Virus record (IMG/VR): IMGVR_UViG_3300021964_000635
Coordinates: 1 to 21,765 of that record
DNA: 21,765 bases
DNA from: a virus
Strand: one strand, 5' to 3'
The position numbers and the translations under genes were made by a program. Shown piece by piece: positions 8,269-21,765 of the stretch. Below the pieces are notes generated by a model. That model was not told where the DNA came from and made no database searches. It saw only the letters and a list, made by a program, of their open reading frames with translations. Position 1 is the first letter of the stretch, and the number at the start of each line of letters is the position of its first letter.

Positions 8269-10650
8269 ATGGCAGAAAGAGTAGTAAGTCCAGGTGTATT
8301 TACCAACGAAAAAGACTTATCTTTCTTACCGCAAGGGATAGACGGAATTGGAGCAGCATTAATCGGACCGACATTAGACGGACCGGCATTTGTTCCAACA
8401 ACCATCAGAAACTTCGGTGAGTTTGAAGATATTTTTGGTAAAGAAACTCAAGACTTTTATGTTCCATTTGCAGCAAAACAATATTTAAGAAACGCTGGAA
8501 ATGTAACAATCGTTCGTGTTATGGGATTAGGCGGATACTCAAACAATACAGTAGCTTTAAGTGTTAGTGGTTCAGACGGGTTAGTTCATACCGTAGCAAC
8601 ACTAAAACCTTCACGAGGCGCAGCAGACCCAGATAGTTTAGACTTAACAACAACCGCACTTAGTGGTAGTGTTAATACAAAAAGCAATTTTGGTCTTACG
8701 ATTGGCGGAACTGCATATCAATTATCATTTGATTCAAGTTCAGCAAACTATATCGGTAAAGTATTTAGTGAAGACGCACAAGACAATACAAAAAATGTTT
8801 ACTTGTATTCTAATCTTTTACATACACAAAACATAATAACGGGTACATCAGTAGTTTTCGTAACGAATGCTGCTACTGACCCATTTTCATCGAATTATTC
8901 GGTGGCAACAACACCATCAATCACATCACAACTTGTAAGTAATTCAAGAACAGAATTATTTAAAGTTAACACTCGTTCACACGGAACAAGTCAAAACACA
9001 AGATTTAGAATCGGTATATCAGATGTTAAACCAGCAACTGATGTAGCAGGAAGTGATTATGGTACATTTAGTTTACAGGTCGTAAGCCATAATCCAGGTC
9101 AAAATGATGACGGAGATATTTTAGAAAACTTCTCTGGATTAAATTTTGATGAGGATTCAGTAAACTACTTACCAAGAGTAATTGGAGATACCTATACAAC
9201 AGTAGACAATTCAACAGGAAAATTAACCAATAATGGTGATTATCCGAATCGTTCAAAATATGTATATATTTCTGATTATGGTAATTTAACAGGAATTTCG
9301 AAAGAATTGGTTCCTATGGGATTCGGAAAGCTAACTTTACCACACAGAACATCAGTAGTAAGTGGTTCAGCTTCTTTCCCAACAGCATCATTACTTGGAC
9401 TAACACAAGCAGCTAAGTCAAGTCAGGTAAATTCAAGAGGAACATTTGACCAAAATGCTTTCTATGGATTTGACTTTGGTCAAACTGCTACAAGTTCTTT
9501 TGACGACAATAGTGAATACTTAGCACCACTACCTTCCACAGGAACAGGTACTGGTAGTAATGTAACTATGAGTTTGGAAGATTGTTTTGGAAACGATGAC
9601 GCATCTACATTAGGTGCTACATACGCAAATGGTTCAACAAAAATCAGTTTAACAAATTCAGCACTTGGTCAAAGAAAGTTCCAAGTTCCTTTCCAGGGTG
9701 GTTTTGATGGACAAAATCCAGCACAAGACATTAAAACTGGAACAGATATCGTAGCTACAAATTCACAAGGATTTGACTTATCTGCAGCAGATAAAAGTGG
9801 TTCAGTTGCATTTAAAAACGCAATTACAGCTATTTCAAACCCAGACGAATTTGACATTAATCTATTAGCAACACCGGGTGTTATTCATTCAATTCACCCA
9901 TCAGTAACAAATCACGCAATTGATAAAGTTGAAGATAGAGCAGACGCTTTCTACATTATGGACGGCTCTCACTATTCAGCATCAGTTCAAAATGCTATTG
10001 ATGATGTTGCGGCAGTAGATTCAAATTATGCAGCTACTTACTATCCTTGGGTAAAAGTATTGGATAGTGTTAAAGGTAAACCTACTTGGGTTCCACCTTC
10101 AGTAGTGTTGCCAGGTGTTTACGCACAAAACGACAGAATTGGACAAGAGTGGTTCGCACCAGCAGGTCTAAATCGTGGTGGTTTAACAGAAGTATTAGAA
10201 GCTAAAACAAGACTAACGAACTTGGAAAGAGATGATTTATATGAAAGTCGTGTAAATCCTATCGCTACTTTCCCAGGTCAAGGTGTAGTCGTGTTTGGTC
10301 AGAAAACACTTCAAGGTAAACCAAGTGCATTAGACAGAATCAATGTAAGAAGATTGTTGATTAACTTGAGAAAGTTCATCGCTTCTACTTCAAGATTCTT
10401 GGTATTTGAACAAAACAATAGTTCTTTAAGAAATCGTTTCTTGAATATTGTTAATCCATATATGGAACAAGTTCAAGCAAATGCAGGACTAACAGCATTC
10501 AGAGTAGTAATGGATGAATCAAACAACACACCAGATGTTGTAGATAGAAACCAATTAGTTGGTCAAATCTTTATCCAACCTACAAGAACAGCTGAGTTCA
10601 TTGTATTGGACTTTGTAGTTCAACCAACAGGAGCAGCATTCCAAGACTAA
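8269..10650 (+). CDS. gp18: Contractile tail sheath protein
   Basis: This 793-residue protein polymerises around the tail tube and contracts to drive the tube through the host envelope. The N terminus (ERVVSPGVFTNEKDLSF, then GAALIGPTLDGPAFVPTTI and the YLRNAGNVTIVRV strand) is the classic opening of T4-type sheath subunits. The C-terminal fold is equally typical: DLYESRVNPIATFPGQGVVVFGQKTL, then INVRRLLINLRKFIAS, ending with GQIFIQPTRTAEFIVLDF. The middle (about 100-500) is a variable Ser/Thr-rich insert, making it longer than T4 gp18 (659 residues). The extra length probably forms surface-exposed domains. The start is fixed by TTAGGAG before ATG. The gene is closed by a strong terminator 23 bases after the stop, so it can be expressed as its own high-level unit. 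Confidence 0.95.
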   Translation: MAERVVSPGVFTNEKDLSFLPQGIDGIGAALIGPTLDGPAFVPTTIRNFGEFEDIFGKETQDFYVPFAAKQYLRNAGNVTIVRVMGLGGYSNNTVALSVSGSDGLVHTVATLKPSRGAADPDSLDLTTTALSGSVNTKSNFGLTIGGTAYQLSFDSSSANYIGKVFSEDAQDNTKNVYLYSNLLHTQNIITGTSVVFVTNAATDPFSSNYSVATTPSITSQLVSNSRTELFKVNTRSHGTSQNTRFRIGISDVKPATDVAGSDYGTFSLQVVSHNPGQNDDGDILENFSGLNFDEDSVNYLPRVIGDTYTTVDNSTGKLTNNGDYPNRSKYVYISDYGNLTGISKELVPMGFGKLTLPHRTSVVSGSASFPTASLLGLTQAAKSSQVNSRGTFDQNAFYGFDFGQTATSSFDDNSEYLAPLPSTGTGTGSNVTMSLEDCFGNDDASTLGATYANGSTKISLTNSALGQRKFQVPFQGGFDGQNPAQDIKTGTDIVATNSQGFDLSAADKSGSVAFKNAITAISNPDEFDINLLATPGVIHSIHPSVTNHAIDKVEDRADAFYIMDGSHYSASVQNAIDDVAAVDSNYAATYYPWVKVLDSVKGKPTWVPPSVVLPGVYAQNDRIGQEWFAPAGLNRGGLTEVLEAKTRLTNLERDDLYESRVNPIATFPGQGVVVFGQKTLQGKPSALDRINVRRLLINLRKFIASTSRFLVFEQNNSSLRNRFLNIVNPYMEQVQANAGLTAFRVVMDESNNTPDVVDRNQLVGQIFIQPTRTAEFIVLDFVVQPTGAAFQD

Positions 10651-10853: not shown

Positions 10854-11252
10854 CTATTTAGGATAAATAGCAAATGTATCAGCGTATTCTGCCAATGTAT
10901 TATATTGACTTCTAACATATCCGTATTGTGGCTTACTACCACCACGATATCTAATTCTATAATTACCAGTCATCATCATTTCTCTAATAACTGGATTCCA
11001 CCTTAATCTCATAGGAATACCCTTGTAATGAGCTACTTCACCAAGGTCAGTATTAGCGTAATTCATAATATTTAATCTTGGTTGATTTTGATTAGCTTCA
11101 TACAATTCCATAGGATTGTGTGCATATTGATAAACATTCATAGTGAATGTCCTATTGTCAAAACCAAAACATCTTTCTACAAGAGTATCTTGGTAATTTC
11201 TCATATAAATACCTTCGGTATCAGTCGTTATTGTTTCATTATTTTCAATCAT
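10854..11252 (-). CDS. Hypothetical protein, probable early gene on the opposite strand
   Basis: I do not recognise this 132-residue protein. It is rich in Tyr, Asn, Met and Arg, has no signal peptide or membrane span, and includes segments such as ERCFGFDNRTFTMNVYQY and GNYRIRYRGGSKPQYGY. A longer frame begins at 11276, but the start at 11252 (MIENNETITT) is preferred because AAGGA lies six bases before it. It is transcribed against the surrounding tail genes from a strong sigma70-like promoter (TTGACA, 17-base spacer, TATATT). Its transcript would end at the bidirectional terminator shared with the sheath gene. This arrangement suggests a self-contained early or accessory gene inserted into the late region. 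Its function is unknown; a host-takeover role would be a guess. Confidence 0.65.
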   Translation of the reverse strand: MIENNETITTDTEGIYMRNYQDTLVERCFGFDNRTFTMNVYQYAHNPMELYEANQNQPRLNIMNYANTDLGEVAHYKGIPMRLRWNPVIREMMMTGNYRIRYRGGSKPQYGYVRSQYNTLAEYADTFAIYPK

Positions 11253-11284
11253 TTCGTTTCCTTTTATCATTATCATAACACTAT

Positions 11285-11577: not shown

Positions 11578-12066
11578 GTGGCTGATTTTATAGACCCAAA
11601 CGAAATATTTTTTACACCATTTGAACCAAAATTATCAAATAGGTTCATTATGGAAATTGACGGAATACCATCATTTATGGTGCAATCTTTCGCAAGACCA
11701 AACATTGAGTTTGAAGAAATAGTAATTCCACATATCAATACAAAAAGATATGTAAAAGGTAGACCAACTTGGTCAGATGTGGAAGTAAAACTATATGACC
11801 CAATCGTCCCAAGTGGAGCACAAGCAGTTATGGAGTGGGTAAGACTACACCACGAATCAGTAACGGGTCGTGACGGATATTCTGACTTTTATAAAAAAGA
11901 TATTACATTTAATGTATTAGGGCCAGTCGGTGATAAAGTTGAAGAGTGGACATTAAAAGGAGCATTTATTAAAAGTGCTAACTTTAGTGATTTCGGATTT
12001 GATGCAGCTAACATAGCAGACATCACACTAACTTTAAGATACGACTACGCTGTATTACAATTCTAA
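11578..12066 (+). CDS. gp19: Tail tube protein
   Basis: This 162-residue protein has the length of T4 gp19 (163 residues) and forms the hexameric rings of the inner tail tube. Typical elements are FEPKLSNRFIMEIDGIPSFM near the N terminus, FARPNIEFEEIVIPHINTKRYVKG, WSDVEVKLYDPIVPSGAQAVMEWV, and a closing ANIADITLTLRYDYAVLQF strand. This is the classic tube layout of two beta sheets with a helix. The start is GTG, chosen because AGGAG stands just upstream and the protein begins directly with the conserved region. It follows the sheath gene except for the minus-strand island, matching the T4 order 18-19. Confidence 0.9.
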   Translation: MADFIDPNEIFFTPFEPKLSNRFIMEIDGIPSFMVQSFARPNIEFEEIVIPHINTKRYVKGRPTWSDVEVKLYDPIVPSGAQAVMEWVRLHHESVTGRDGYSDFYKKDITFNVLGPVGDKVEEWTLKGAFIKSANFSDFGFDAANIADITLTLRYDYAVLQF

Positions 12067-12326: not shown

Positions 12327-13097
12327 ATGGCTGAAAATCAGTACGGATTTCCTACTGAAGTTCTATCTTTACCTTCACAGGGATTATTGTATCCCGAAGA
12401 TAGTCCTTTGCGTAATGGAACCATAGATGTCAAATATATGACAGCAAAAGAGGAAGATATCTTAACTTCCACAAATCTAATTCAACAAGGTGTAGTTTTA
12501 GATAGATTATTGGAAAGTGTAATCGCAGACAAAGGTATCAAATTAGATGACCTACTTGTCGGTGATAAAAATGCACTTCTATTAGGAACTCGTATTTTGG
12601 GGTATGGTAAAGATTATAGATGTACCATTACAGACCCAGATACAGAGGAACAAGTAGAACATACAATAGATTTATCTACAATACAACACAAATCAATAGA
12701 TGAAAAATCATTTGAAAATGGAAATCTATTTAGTTTTGAATTACCGAACTCTAAAAGAGTATTAGAATTTAAAGTTCTAACTCACGGAGACGAAAAGAAA
12801 CTTCAAGAAATAAATGAAACCTATGAAAATGCAAAAAAGATAACAGGTATTGACCACTCTATGACAAATAGAATGAAATATCAAATCGTATCAATAGACG
12901 GAAAAACAGACCAAAAAGAAATAGACAAGTTTGTTGATAACGACTTCTTAGCATTAGATTCAAGAGCATTCAGATTATATCGAGATAAACTAAACCCAGA
13001 TGTCGAAATGGTGTTTGACTATACAAGTCAGACTGGTAAAAAACATAAAGTTGATTTACCAATAAATGTAGAATTTTTTTGGCCAGCCGCCGAGTAA
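12327..13097 (+). CDS. Tail assembly chaperone / baseplate hub factor, gp26-like, short form
   Basis: The 256-residue product opens with YGFPTEVLSLPSQGLLYPEDSPL, then VKYMTAKEEDILTSTNLI and VLDRLLESVI. I associate this pattern with the T4 gp26-type baseplate/hub family (T4_baseplate in Pfam, from memory). The middle carries an acidic beta region and a helical LKVLTHGDEKKLQEINETY-like stretch. It lies between the tube and tape-measure genes, exactly where most long-tailed phages encode the tail assembly chaperone pair. The zero-frame product ends in NVEFFWPAAE and two tandem stops (TAA TAG). A T7 run and hairpin just before the stop suggest that a fraction of ribosomes shift frame and add 71 residues. 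The start is set by AAGGAG before ATG. Confidence 0.75.
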   Translation: MAENQYGFPTEVLSLPSQGLLYPEDSPLRNGTIDVKYMTAKEEDILTSTNLIQQGVVLDRLLESVIADKGIKLDDLLVGDKNALLLGTRILGYGKDYRCTITDPDTEEQVEHTIDLSTIQHKSIDEKSFENGNLFSFELPNSKRVLEFKVLTHGDEKKLQEINETYENAKKITGIDHSMTNRMKYQIVSIDGKTDQKEIDKFVDNDFLALDSRAFRLYRDKLNPDVEMVFDYTSQTGKKHKVDLPINVEFFWPAAE

Positions 13098-13106
13098 TAG
13101 GGCGGC
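13074..13106 (+). promoter_or_regulatory. Probable programmed ribosomal frameshift site: T7 slippery run and GC hairpin
   Basis: TTTTTTT (13074-13080) is followed after five bases by a perfect six-pair all-GC stem, GCCGCC (13086-13091) with GGCGGC (13101-13106). The nine-base loop holds the zero-frame stop. Phe-tRNA on UUU UUU U can slip +1 (or -2) and enter the frame that stays open to 13296. The stem is exceptional in such AT-rich sequence. Confidence 0.7.
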
Positions 13107-13296
13107 CATACACGAAGAACTCTTTAACATTGCCTATTATGGTAATGGATTCAACCACGACGAACTATACAATATGCCAGTATTCTTAAGAAAATTCTAT
13201 GCTCAAAAATTAATAGACGCAAAGAAAAAAGAATCTGAACTAATCAAAGATGTTCAACGAGGAAAAAGTCAACCACCAAGTTACCAAAAATCTTAA
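13081..13296 (+). CDS. Frameshift extension of the tail assembly chaperone (long form 12327-13296)
   Basis: In the +1/-2 frame a 71-residue segment runs from GGC at 13081 to the TAA at 13294-13296. It reads GQPPSNRAAIHEELFNIAYY, then GNGFNHDELYNMPVFLRKFY and a Lys-rich helix (AQKLIDAKKKESELIKDVQR). The N-M-P-x-x-L-R-x-F-Y pattern is one I recall from C-terminal parts of phage tail chaperones. There is no ATG, GTG or TTG near its beginning; the first ATG is internal, at the NMP. The frame is closed upstream by a TAG at 13069-13071, so it can only be reached inside the short window holding the T7 run. The long product would have 322 residues (323 after a -2 slip). In known systems the long form binds the tape measure and the short form coats it. 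Confidence 0.7.
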   Translation, partial: GQPPSNRAAIHEELFNIAYYGNGFNHDELYNMPVFLRKFYAQKLIDAKKKESELIKDVQRGKSQPPSYQKS

Positions 13297-13311: not shown

Positions 13312-13315
13312 ATTG

Positions 13316-13528
13316 ATGAAAAACAAACTTACAGAACGACAAAAAATCAACGAATTTATCGGTAAAGCACTTGAAAGGTTTTTAACCAACCGAGCAAGTA
13401 AATCTCTTGATAAATTTATGAAAACTGACCCGGCGCTACGCAAGAAAATTAACACTATGAATGACAAAGCTCTTGATGTATTAAACCACTTAGAAAAGGT
13501 TAAGCAGGGTAAAGTTAAACTTAGATAA
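13316..13528 (+). CDS. Small basic helical protein, hypothetical
   Basis: The 70-residue protein is Lys/Arg-rich and mostly helical: KLTERQKINEFIGKALERFL, then SKSLDKFMKTDPALRKKINT and NHLEKVKQGKVKLR. The ATG at 13316 is preferred over the TTG one codon earlier. No ribosome binding site is visible. I do not recognise the family. Small basic proteins between chaperone and tape-measure genes occur in many phages, often without known function. It may be a minor virion protein or a DNA/RNA-binding factor. It is coding in style with its neighbours (same strand, similar composition), and the next gene starts 46 bases later. Confidence 0.55.
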   Translation: MKNKLTERQKINEFIGKALERFLTNRASKSLDKFMKTDPALRKKINTMNDKALDVLNHLEKVKQGKVKLR

Positions 13529-13574: not shown

Positions 13575-15395
13575 ATGGCTAAAACAAGACAGCAAAATCT
13601 GAACGATATGTTTGGTTCTATTGACAAACTCAATACCAAACTTGACAAATTATCATCTACCGTAGAAAACTTAGATACTAAACTATCTTCGGTGGAAAAG
13701 GGTAGTGCTGAAGAAGCAAATCTTATAAATAAAAAAAATAAAGCCATAGAAGAAGAAACCAAAGTCACAAAAGAATCTACAAAGAAAGAAAAAGAAAAAG
13801 TTGAAAGTATAGAAGAATCGATTGAAAAGACTGATAGTTGGACTGAAGCTATCATAAAAAGTGCAGATGAAGCCAGTGTTGGTTTTACACAAGTAAAGAA
13901 AATGTTTGGAGAATCTGGTAATAGTTTTATCGATAGTTTTACCGACTATGCAGAAATCATACTAAGTTCTGGAAAAGACCTTGATACAAATGATATAGGT
14001 AAAAAAACTCTTAAATCAGTTGGTGGTATATTTGAAAACATAGCTAATATAGCAAATGATGAATATACAAGTTTTGATAGAAAAGCTTCAGATAAAAAAC
14101 GAAAAGAACTTGAAAAATCAGGCGCAGGTGATGTAGACCTTGACTTGTTTGATTCAGCAGTAGCAGCTGCAGAAGCAACTGATACGGTGGTACAGCAATC
14201 GGAGAAATTAGTTGATTCAACACAAGCGTTGGGTAAACAACTTAGTTCAACGGTTCAAAGTATTCCATTAATTGGTGGATTTTTAGATAAACATTTACAA
14301 AAAGGTTTAACAAGTCTTGGACAAAATTTAAAATCAAATTTACTTAAAAATATAAACTTATCAAATAAAGGAACGAAAAATATAGGAAAAGGATTTACAG
14401 GAACATTAGGGCCAATTAGAGCGATGGGTGCAGCAATCGGAACAGCTACGGGTGGTGTTACAATATTGATTGGACTTTTAGTAGCGGCAGCAGCATTACT
14501 AATCGGAATGGCAAAACGAGCAAGAGATTTTGCTGGTGAAGCCAATATAGGTTTTATGCAATCAGTAAAACTACAAGGTGAATTCTTGAAAGCTGATGCT
14601 ATGTTGGTTGGAACTGGTAAAAAATCAACAGATATTGGAAAAGAATTAATTCAAAACTATGGAACATTAGCAAATGTTAATGCGGATGCTATAAAACAAA
14701 TAGGGCAAATGTCCGTAAAATTTGGTGTTGCAACAGACGACTTAATTAAATTCCAAAAAGGATTTTCAGATGTAACGGGAGCATCAGCAGATGTTGCTAA
14801 CGATGTTGTTAGAGCAGTTGGTGATATGGCAGCAGGAGCTGGTGTAGCTGCAGGTGCAGTAATAAAAGATATATCAGGTAGTATGGAAGCGTTTGCAAGA
14901 TTTTCTACTGAGGGTGCTATGGGTATGGCTGAAGCTGCAATTGAAGCAGCTAAAATTGGTTCAAACTTAAGTGAGGTTGTTAAAATGGCAGACGCACTAT
15001 TAAATTTTGAATCCAGTATCACAGCAGAATTTGAAGCACAAGTCTTAACGGGTAAAGCACTAAACCTTGAAAAAGCAAGAGAAGCTGCACTTCAAGGAGA
15101 TTTCGCAACATTAACACAAGAAATACAACAGCAAGTTGGTGGATTAGGTAATTTACAAGCAATGAATGTTATTCAAAAAGATTCTATCGCAACTGCACTT
15201 GGTATTAGTGTAGCAGAATTAACAAAGATTGCTCGTGGTGAAGCAATAGATAACGAAGAATCACCAGAATTAAAAGCACAAAAAAGAACAAATCAAATCT
15301 TAATTGACGGATTTACAGGAAACAAAGAAGCATTAGAAAACATCGGTAAGAAATCAGCTGATAGTTCCGGTGGTATGTTTGGGGATTTTTTATAG
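13575..15395 (+). CDS. Tail tape measure protein
   Basis: The 606-residue protein sets tail length by spanning the inside of the tube. It opens with a long charged coiled coil (about 10-100), then mixed helices. A strongly hydrophobic segment follows (about 292-314, GGVTILIGLLVAAAALLIGM), as expected for tape measures that enter the host membrane. Further amphipathic Ala/Gly-rich helices run to the C terminus (ADVANDVVRAVGDMAAGAGV, then MNVIQKDSIATALGISVAEL). At the usual 0.15 nm per residue it would give a tail of about 91 nm, close to T4, whose tape measure gp29 has 590 residues. It follows the chaperone gene, the usual place. There is no clear ribosome binding site before the ATG, so translation may be inefficient, in line with its low copy number. 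Confidence 0.85.
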   Translation: MAKTRQQNLNDMFGSIDKLNTKLDKLSSTVENLDTKLSSVEKGSAEEANLINKKNKAIEEETKVTKESTKKEKEKVESIEESIEKTDSWTEAIIKSADEASVGFTQVKKMFGESGNSFIDSFTDYAEIILSSGKDLDTNDIGKKTLKSVGGIFENIANIANDEYTSFDRKASDKKRKELEKSGAGDVDLDLFDSAVAAAEATDTVVQQSEKLVDSTQALGKQLSSTVQSIPLIGGFLDKHLQKGLTSLGQNLKSNLLKNINLSNKGTKNIGKGFTGTLGPIRAMGAAIGTATGGVTILIGLLVAAAALLIGMAKRARDFAGEANIGFMQSVKLQGEFLKADAMLVGTGKKSTDIGKELIQNYGTLANVNADAIKQIGQMSVKFGVATDDLIKFQKGFSDVTGASADVANDVVRAVGDMAAGAGVAAGAVIKDISGSMEAFARFSTEGAMGMAEAAIEAAKIGSNLSEVVKMADALLNFESSITAEFEAQVLTGKALNLEKAREAALQGDFATLTQEIQQQVGGLGNLQAMNVIQKDSIATALGISVAELTKIARGEAIDNEESPELKAQKRTNQILIDGFTGNKEALENIGKKSADSSGGMFGDFL

Positions 15396-20719: not shown

Positions 20720-21765
20720 ATGGTTATAGTAAATACAGATATTCTATTCAACCAACTCAAACAACAAATACAATCAAAACCATTTGTATTATTGCAAATG
20801 TATTCAGATGTTCAACAACATCCACAAGAAAATCGTATTAGTTGTTATTGGGTTGATTTTCAAGACGAACAATATATTGTTCCGATTCACCATACAGAAC
20901 AATTTCAAGACACCTTAGAAATGATTAAAACCGACCAAACGATTTATGTTCAAGATTTAAAACAATATTATCACAATACATTGGTATTCAGTAAAGACAT
21001 TAGGGATATGAATTGGGCACACTATCAACAAACCAATCAACCATATGATTCAGAACAACACTTAACCAATGCACATCATCATCAATACAGATTACATTAT
21101 GATAAACAAAACATAAATGATGTAATTCCATTAGTGAAACACGCAGAATACTTTGAACCAATATCACGAGAACTATATAAGTCATACGAACAACACGACC
21201 AAACCATACTGGAAAACCTATACCAAATAGAACGAAACGGATTGAAAACTTATGAAAAAATCGTATATTCAGAATACAATCCATACACTTCAACAGGTCG
21301 TCCAAGTAATCGTTTCGGTGGATTAAACTTCGCAGCACTAAACAAATCAGACGGAAGTAGAAAACAATTCATCAGTAGATTTAACAATGGAGTATTGGTT
21401 GAAATGGACTTTGATGCTTATCACTTACGATTAATCGGAGAGATTATCGGTTATGAATTCCCTAAAACATCAGTCCACGAACATATGGCAGAACTATATG
21501 GATTACCTTATGATGAAGCAAAAGCCCTATCATTTAAGTATTTATATGGAGGTATTACAGATGAGGTATCAAACAACCCATTTTTCTCAAAAGTAAACGA
21601 TTATATTAAATTACTCTGGCAGGACTATAAAACTAACAATTTTGTTCAATCTTATATTTATAATAGAAGAATATATAGGAAAAATCTACAAGATATGAAT
21701 CCAAATAAATTGTTCAATTATATGATACAATTAATGGAAACGGAAAACAATATCAAGATTTTGAA
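20720..21765 (+). CDS. Family A (Pol I-like) DNA polymerase, 3' end outside window
   Basis: 348 codons are visible and the frame is still open at the edge. It has T192-G-R194, matching the TGR before the O-helix region. Motif A is MDFDAYHLR with the catalytic Asp at 230 and Arg at 237. Motif B is K268-ALSFKYLY-G277 (family pattern K-x-x-x-F-x-x-x-Y-G), and an N333-x-x-x-Q337 pair matches the conserved Asn/Gln of the Q helix. Motif C (HDE) would lie beyond the window. The motif A Asp to motif B Lys distance is 38 residues against 53 in Klenow and Taq, and the Arg normally four residues before Lys is Tyr. Residues 1-190 show no DxE exonuclease motif; they may be a reduced exonuclease-like fold. 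It probably replicates the phage genome, perhaps with a separate proofreading protein. Confidence 0.85.
   Translation, partial: MVIVNTDILFNQLKQQIQSKPFVLLQMYSDVQQHPQENRISCYWVDFQDEQYIVPIHHTEQFQDTLEMIKTDQTIYVQDLKQYYHNTLVFSKDIRDMNWAHYQQTNQPYDSEQHLTNAHHHQYRLHYDKQNINDVIPLVKHAEYFEPISRELYKSYEQHDQTILENLYQIERNGLKTYEKIVYSEYNPYTSTGRPSNRFGGLNFAALNKSDGSRKQFISRFNNGVLVEMDFDAYHLRLIGEIIGYEFPKTSVHEHMAELYGLPYDEAKALSFKYLYGGITDEVSNNPFFSKVNDYIKLLWQDYKTNNFVQSYIYNRRIYRKNLQDMNPNKLFNYMIQLMETENNIKIL

Follow-up and report, generated by a model that had tools for sequence, protein, structure and literature searches.

A conserved probable +1 frameshift in the gp26-type tail assembly chaperone gene of a T4-type phage

The DNA studied here, hereafter the window, is a stretch of 21,765 nucleotides from a virus (IMG/VR record IMGVR_UViG_3300021964_000635). 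It contains a gp26-like gene whose end is overlapped by an open frame that continues beyond the stop codon. An earlier note on this DNA proposed that a programmed +1 or -2 frameshift joins both frames in a tail assembly chaperone. This raises the questions of whether the second frame codes for protein, how ribosomes would enter it and in which direction they would slip.

The chaperone locus and its neighbours

The product of the zero-frame gene (TAC-N) matches the Pfam family PF12322, T4_baseplate, above its curated cut-off (E = 1.7e-10, 41.4 bits vs a cut-off of 24.5) and the PHROGs family phrog_150, baseplate hub (E = 2.8e-14). The N and C parts were folded separately by AF2. The TAC-N model (pLDDT 92) is matched in Foldseek by the SP-15 hub and T4-like hub assembly proteins, and these results together bear out the gp26-like identity that had been proposed. 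Against the PDB, Foldseek gave no significant match for this model, the HK97 chaperone appearing only at E = 3.3. The C part (TAC-C), modelled as a three-helix domain (pLDDT 85), has zero matches in Pfam and PHROGs, and its structure search returned weak matches only, including a 'Tape measure chaperone' of phage Moogle (E = 1.1). A profile of the fused product aligns with T4 gp51 over most of the length, C-terminus included (E = 1e-5), and the C-domain alone, whose length is insufficient for a convincing match, scores E = 0.005 (probability 7%) against the gp51 C-terminus.

The gene sits between the tail tube gene and a tape measure candidate (Table 1), whose product shares 38.8% identity over 139 aa (E = 9e-20) with the protein annotated as tape measure in Flavobacterium phage immuto_3-5A. 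Tail assembly chaperone genes usually lie here, and position and homology support the chaperone role ahead of the tape measure put forward in the earlier note. The locus would encode a tail assembly chaperone of the gp26/PF12322 type, in a T4-type phage with a contractile tail. Among the other ORFs of the window, a 71-aa one (13313-13528), present in 25 of the loci searched, lies between the chaperone and tape measure genes, and a minus-strand ORF of 140 aa (10854-11276), which has no PHROG match, lies between the sheath and tube genes. An ORF running off the end of the window (20720-21765) displays family-A DNA polymerase-like motifs by eye, unsupported by Pfam and PHROGs.

The elements first described from the letters are all in place: a T7 run, a 5-base spacer and a six-pair stem (13086-13091 paired with 13101-13106) whose 9-nt loop, GAGTAATAG, contains the zero-frame TAA (13095-13097). 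The +1 frame is indeed closed upstream by a stop (TAG, 13069-13071) and lacks a start codon of its own, its earliest in-frame ATG being found at 13174, within the conserved domain. The extension is open up to its terminal TAA (13294-13296) as had been described, but its length has to be corrected from 71 codons to the 72 that follow a +1 shift (13078-13293). The fused product, TAC-NC, would have 322 aa.

Table 1. Features of the chaperone locus and neighbouring tail genes in the window
Feature	Position	Strand	Details
Tail sheath protein	8269..10650	+	PF04984 and PF17482
Tail tube protein, gp19-like	11578..12066	+	PF06841, E 5.4e-6, just below cut-off
TAC-N, short tail assembly chaperone, gp26-like, 256 aa	12327..13097	+	zero frame, stop TAA 13095-13097
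Shift site, T7	13074..13080	+	zero frame GAA TTT TTT TGG; +1 next codon GGC
Spacer GGCCA, 5 nt	13081..13085	+	length constant; GGCC[AT] in hairpin clade
Hairpin GCCGCC / GGCGGC, probable stimulator	13086..13106	+	420/420 pairs, RNAalifold z -7.9
TAC-C extension, +1 frame, 72 codons + stop	13078..13296	+	dN/dS 0.24-0.25; AF2 pLDDT 85; relatives in Mel-JY01, immuto, LR756508 and IMG/VR
Probable tape measure protein	13575..15395	+	match to immuto tape measure

Coding in two frames across relatives

Coding in both frames is conserved. Copies of the locus from other metagenome records, 100% and 99% identical to the window, have the identical T7. A tblastn search with the C part retrieved Microcystis phage Mel-JY01, the uncultured phage LR756508 and Flavobacterium phage immuto, in which this part overlaps a gp26-like gene in the same relative frame as in the window. 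Examined across relatives as the earlier note had suggested, the offset is kept: it is +1 in 150/150 loci with both halves (from IMG/VR and the records of these three phages), and the distant gp26-like genes of SP-15, Listeria LIS04, Streptococcus GXN1 and Rhodothermus RM378 are also +1. A profile-based survey covered 183 distinct loci with enough sequence. The C frame is +1 in 178 of them (171 by HMM, 7 by an open +1 extension) and -1 in the other five (four by HMM, cyanophage S-SSM7 by reading), so the rarity that had been attributed to +1 does not hold within the gp26-type family. In the window's clade, the dN/dS of the C frame is 0.25 overall and 0.24 beyond the overlap, compared with 0.25 for the N gene, and its codon-position entropy (0.59/0.28/1.06) is highest at the third position. 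The C part is under purifying selection of the same strength as the N part.

Several scenarios may explain this arrangement. The one that the earlier note regarded as the main alternative is an indel, introduced by assembly or sequencing, in a gene that is in fact continuous. The site is a homopolymer run, but the same T7 and offset are shared by contigs from many metagenomes and by isolate genomes such as those of Mel-JY01 and RM378, and zero-frame stops are conserved within or just after the hairpin. Since the offset is shared across loci and the C frame shows the dN/dS and codon-position pattern described above, an indel artefact is refuted, its probability being practically nil.

Another scenario is that the C-ORF is a separate gene with its own or a coupled start. 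In some relatives a TTG or ATG does occur upstream in the C frame, and in one public record a short CDS of its own is annotated at this place. Yet the window is start-less before 13174, no ATG, GTG or TTG is found within 12 codons after the shift in 152/171 loci, and this scenario would not account for the conservation of the T run and the hairpin. A separate gene seems very improbable. The programmed frameshift proposed in the earlier note is better supported, both by the conserved two-frame coding and by a conserved slippery site.

Shift site, direction of slippage and hairpin

The T run, whose conservation the earlier note had also proposed to examine, is present in every main-clade locus, and UUU-Y is retained in 167/171 distinct loci. 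TTC occurs at the site in 7/330 cases vs 22.7% elsewhere in the same genes (raw counts, relatedness ignored); the run is preserved more strictly than the codons themselves demand. The site motifs are mainly TTTTTTTGG (n = 112), TTTTTTTAC (n = 30) and TTTCTTTGG (n = 7), with TTT or TTC, then TTTC, in the SP-15 group. Nearly all of them appear to obey one rule, by which tRNA-Phe on UUU before U or C could move +1 onto UUU or UUC. A shift in -1 is rejected, since the C-ORF is in the +1 frame and the classical heptamer X XXY YYZ is absent in 170/171 loci.

Slippage by -2, as in phage Mu, would reach the same frame and make the same fusion with one extra Phe (EFFFG, vs EFFG for +1), and the T7 lets tRNA-Phe re-pair two bases back. 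Cognate re-pairing is possible for -2 in 154/171 loci, a majority but not all, and for +1 in 167/171. The 13 loci that permit +1 only (TTTCTTT, TTCTTTC, TTCTTTT or TTTCTAT) are homologous genes with the same offset, which favours +1 over -2 and agrees with the view of +1 as the natural direction here; a -2 shift seems rather unlikely. Four SP-15-like loci (L283, L286, L288, L292) keep the +1 C-domain without cognate UUU-Y re-pairing; their sites read TTA TTT AAT, TTA TTC AAT or CTA TTC AAT, and neither rule fits them.

Alternatively, transcriptional slippage on the T7 could yield mRNAs in both frames. Most relatives have a homopolymer T7, but a 7-base run is short for RNA polymerase slippage. 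Moreover, the offset is unchanged in homologues without a long run (TTTCTTTGG, TTCTTTCGT, TTTCTATTC), which argues against this explanation; we give it very little credence.

All stem cells pair (420/420) across the window's clade (70 loci), while the arms co-vary (GCCGCC/GGCGGC, GCCGGT/ACCGGC, GCCGGC/GCCGGC and GCCGGC/GTCGGC). At least six parsimony changes map to the stem on the tree, slid versions of the stem pair at 16 to 64%, and RNAalifold gives a z of -7.9 for this clade. On both arms, the stem changes are non-synonymous (QPP with RAA, QPV with RPA); the pairing itself is therefore probably under selection. For the other +1 clades, RNAalifold gave no shared hairpin. The hairpin is thus not essential to the mechanism and, being confined to the window's clade, would be a lineage-specific addition. 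Its conservation among relatives, one of the points raised by the earlier note, holds in the window's subclade, where compensatory changes maintain it, but not across the +1 clades in general. Its probable role is that of a stimulator of the shift.

On this comparative evidence, the locus very probably uses a conserved programmed +1 frameshift to make the chaperones TAC-N and TAC-NC. Most ribosomes would terminate at 13095 and release the 256-aa TAC-N. The hairpin that follows after 5 nt, and possibly the UGG codon as well, would slow a fraction of them at GAA UUU UUU UGG; the P-site tRNA-Phe would then slip one base forward, from UUU to UUU, and decoding would resume at GGC, adding the 72-residue helical TAC-C to give the 322-aa TAC-NC. 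If the pair behaves like gpG/gpGT of lambda, abundant TAC-N and scarce TAC-NC would cover the tape measure protein and bring in the tube subunits.

Known systems and the gp26-type family

The earlier note was not aware of frameshifting in a T4-type gp26-like gene, but such cases are known. According to PMC10885494 and PMC12846349, the T4-like TAC genes and their frameshifting were identified by Vladimirov, Gautam & Davidson 2022 (Virology 566:9-15), a study that both also cite for the separate short and long TAC genes of some T4-like phages. The poly-T sites in T4-like TAC-N genes are given as -1 signals in PMC12846349, and T4 is described in PMC10885494 as having two genes and no frameshift. 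More generally, Atkins et al. 2016 (PMC5009743) describe wide conservation of G-T frameshifting, with T4 as the exception, and shifts of -1, -2 and +1 among tailed phages. Lambda gpG/gpGT resembles the window in that two overlapping ORFs ahead of the tape measure gene yield the chaperone in a short and a long form (PMC5009743), although the shift is -1 in lambda and +1 in the window.

The T4-like -1 chaperones share with the window a homologous gp26-type gene, a TAC-N plus TAC-C organization and two product forms, as in S-SSM7 (T TTT TTC with the C-ORF in -1). The window differs from them by its +1 frame, the short covarying hairpin of its clade and its position on a separate deep branch of the tree. 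T4 gp26 resembles the short form of the window and T4 gp51 looks like N plus C in a single ORF, but T4 has two genes without a frameshift. HSTV-2 and prfB (+1) and phage Mu (-2) reach the same frame as the window. The prfB type of P-site slippage (CUU-U) has a counterpart in TTT CTT TGG of immuto; in prfB the shift occurs at a stop codon, whereas in the window the next zero-frame codon is UGG and the stop comes a few codons further. The abstract of the 2022 study by Vladimirov and colleagues reportedly names gp26 and gp51 and describes frameshifting as conserved in several T4-like groups.

The N-part tree has on one side the -1 phages S-SSM7, RL2RES, Cygsa01 and L296-298 together with T4 gp26/gp51, and on the other 74 +1 rows and a single -1 row. 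Shift direction is strongly clustered on this tree (0/500 shuffles as low), whose long branches leave the details unsure, and +1 appears to be the rule across the whole deep branch that holds the window. The single -1 row is jumbo phage LR756511 (L160), whose gp26-like gene lies within the +1 branch while its C-domain is read in -1 at T TTT TTC, an apparent direction switch. In S-SSM7 (L165, 2160-2230), the annotated 63-aa 'gp51' corresponds to the -1-frame C-domain of gp26, and a strong 12-bp hairpin (z -5.5) lies 3' of the T TTT TTC site.

Frameshifted T4-like chaperones with -1 poly-T sites being known (PMC12846349), what seems new is a deep gp26-type branch, comprising Bacteroidota phages, SP-15, RM378 and Mel-JY01, that would use +1, with a clade-specific hairpin. 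No description of a +1 direction for gp26-type chaperones was found in the open-licence literature, and none of the public records examined annotates the gene as frameshifted; in public genomes such as those of Mel-JY01, immuto and SP-15 the C-domain is either labelled a hypothetical protein or truncated in the annotation. On balance, we lean towards a scenario in which +1 slippage of tRNA-Phe on UUU-Y gives this whole branch its long form. Within one family, the Phe-Phe site would then have served -1 or +1 shifting, or been replaced by two genes in T4, and the window's clade would have recruited a 3' hairpin at a -1-type spacing to stimulate +1 shifting, an uncommon arrangement in bacteria and phages.

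In genes that shift by +1, the C-domain would escape homology searches and -1-oriented frameshift tools. With its -1, +1 and two-gene members, the family would form a natural series in which to study how a frameshift can change direction without loss of the fused protein, and it is relevant to the roles of T4 gp26 and gp51 in the assembly of hub and tail. It would also be a clean test case for +1 shifting driven by a 3' hairpin.
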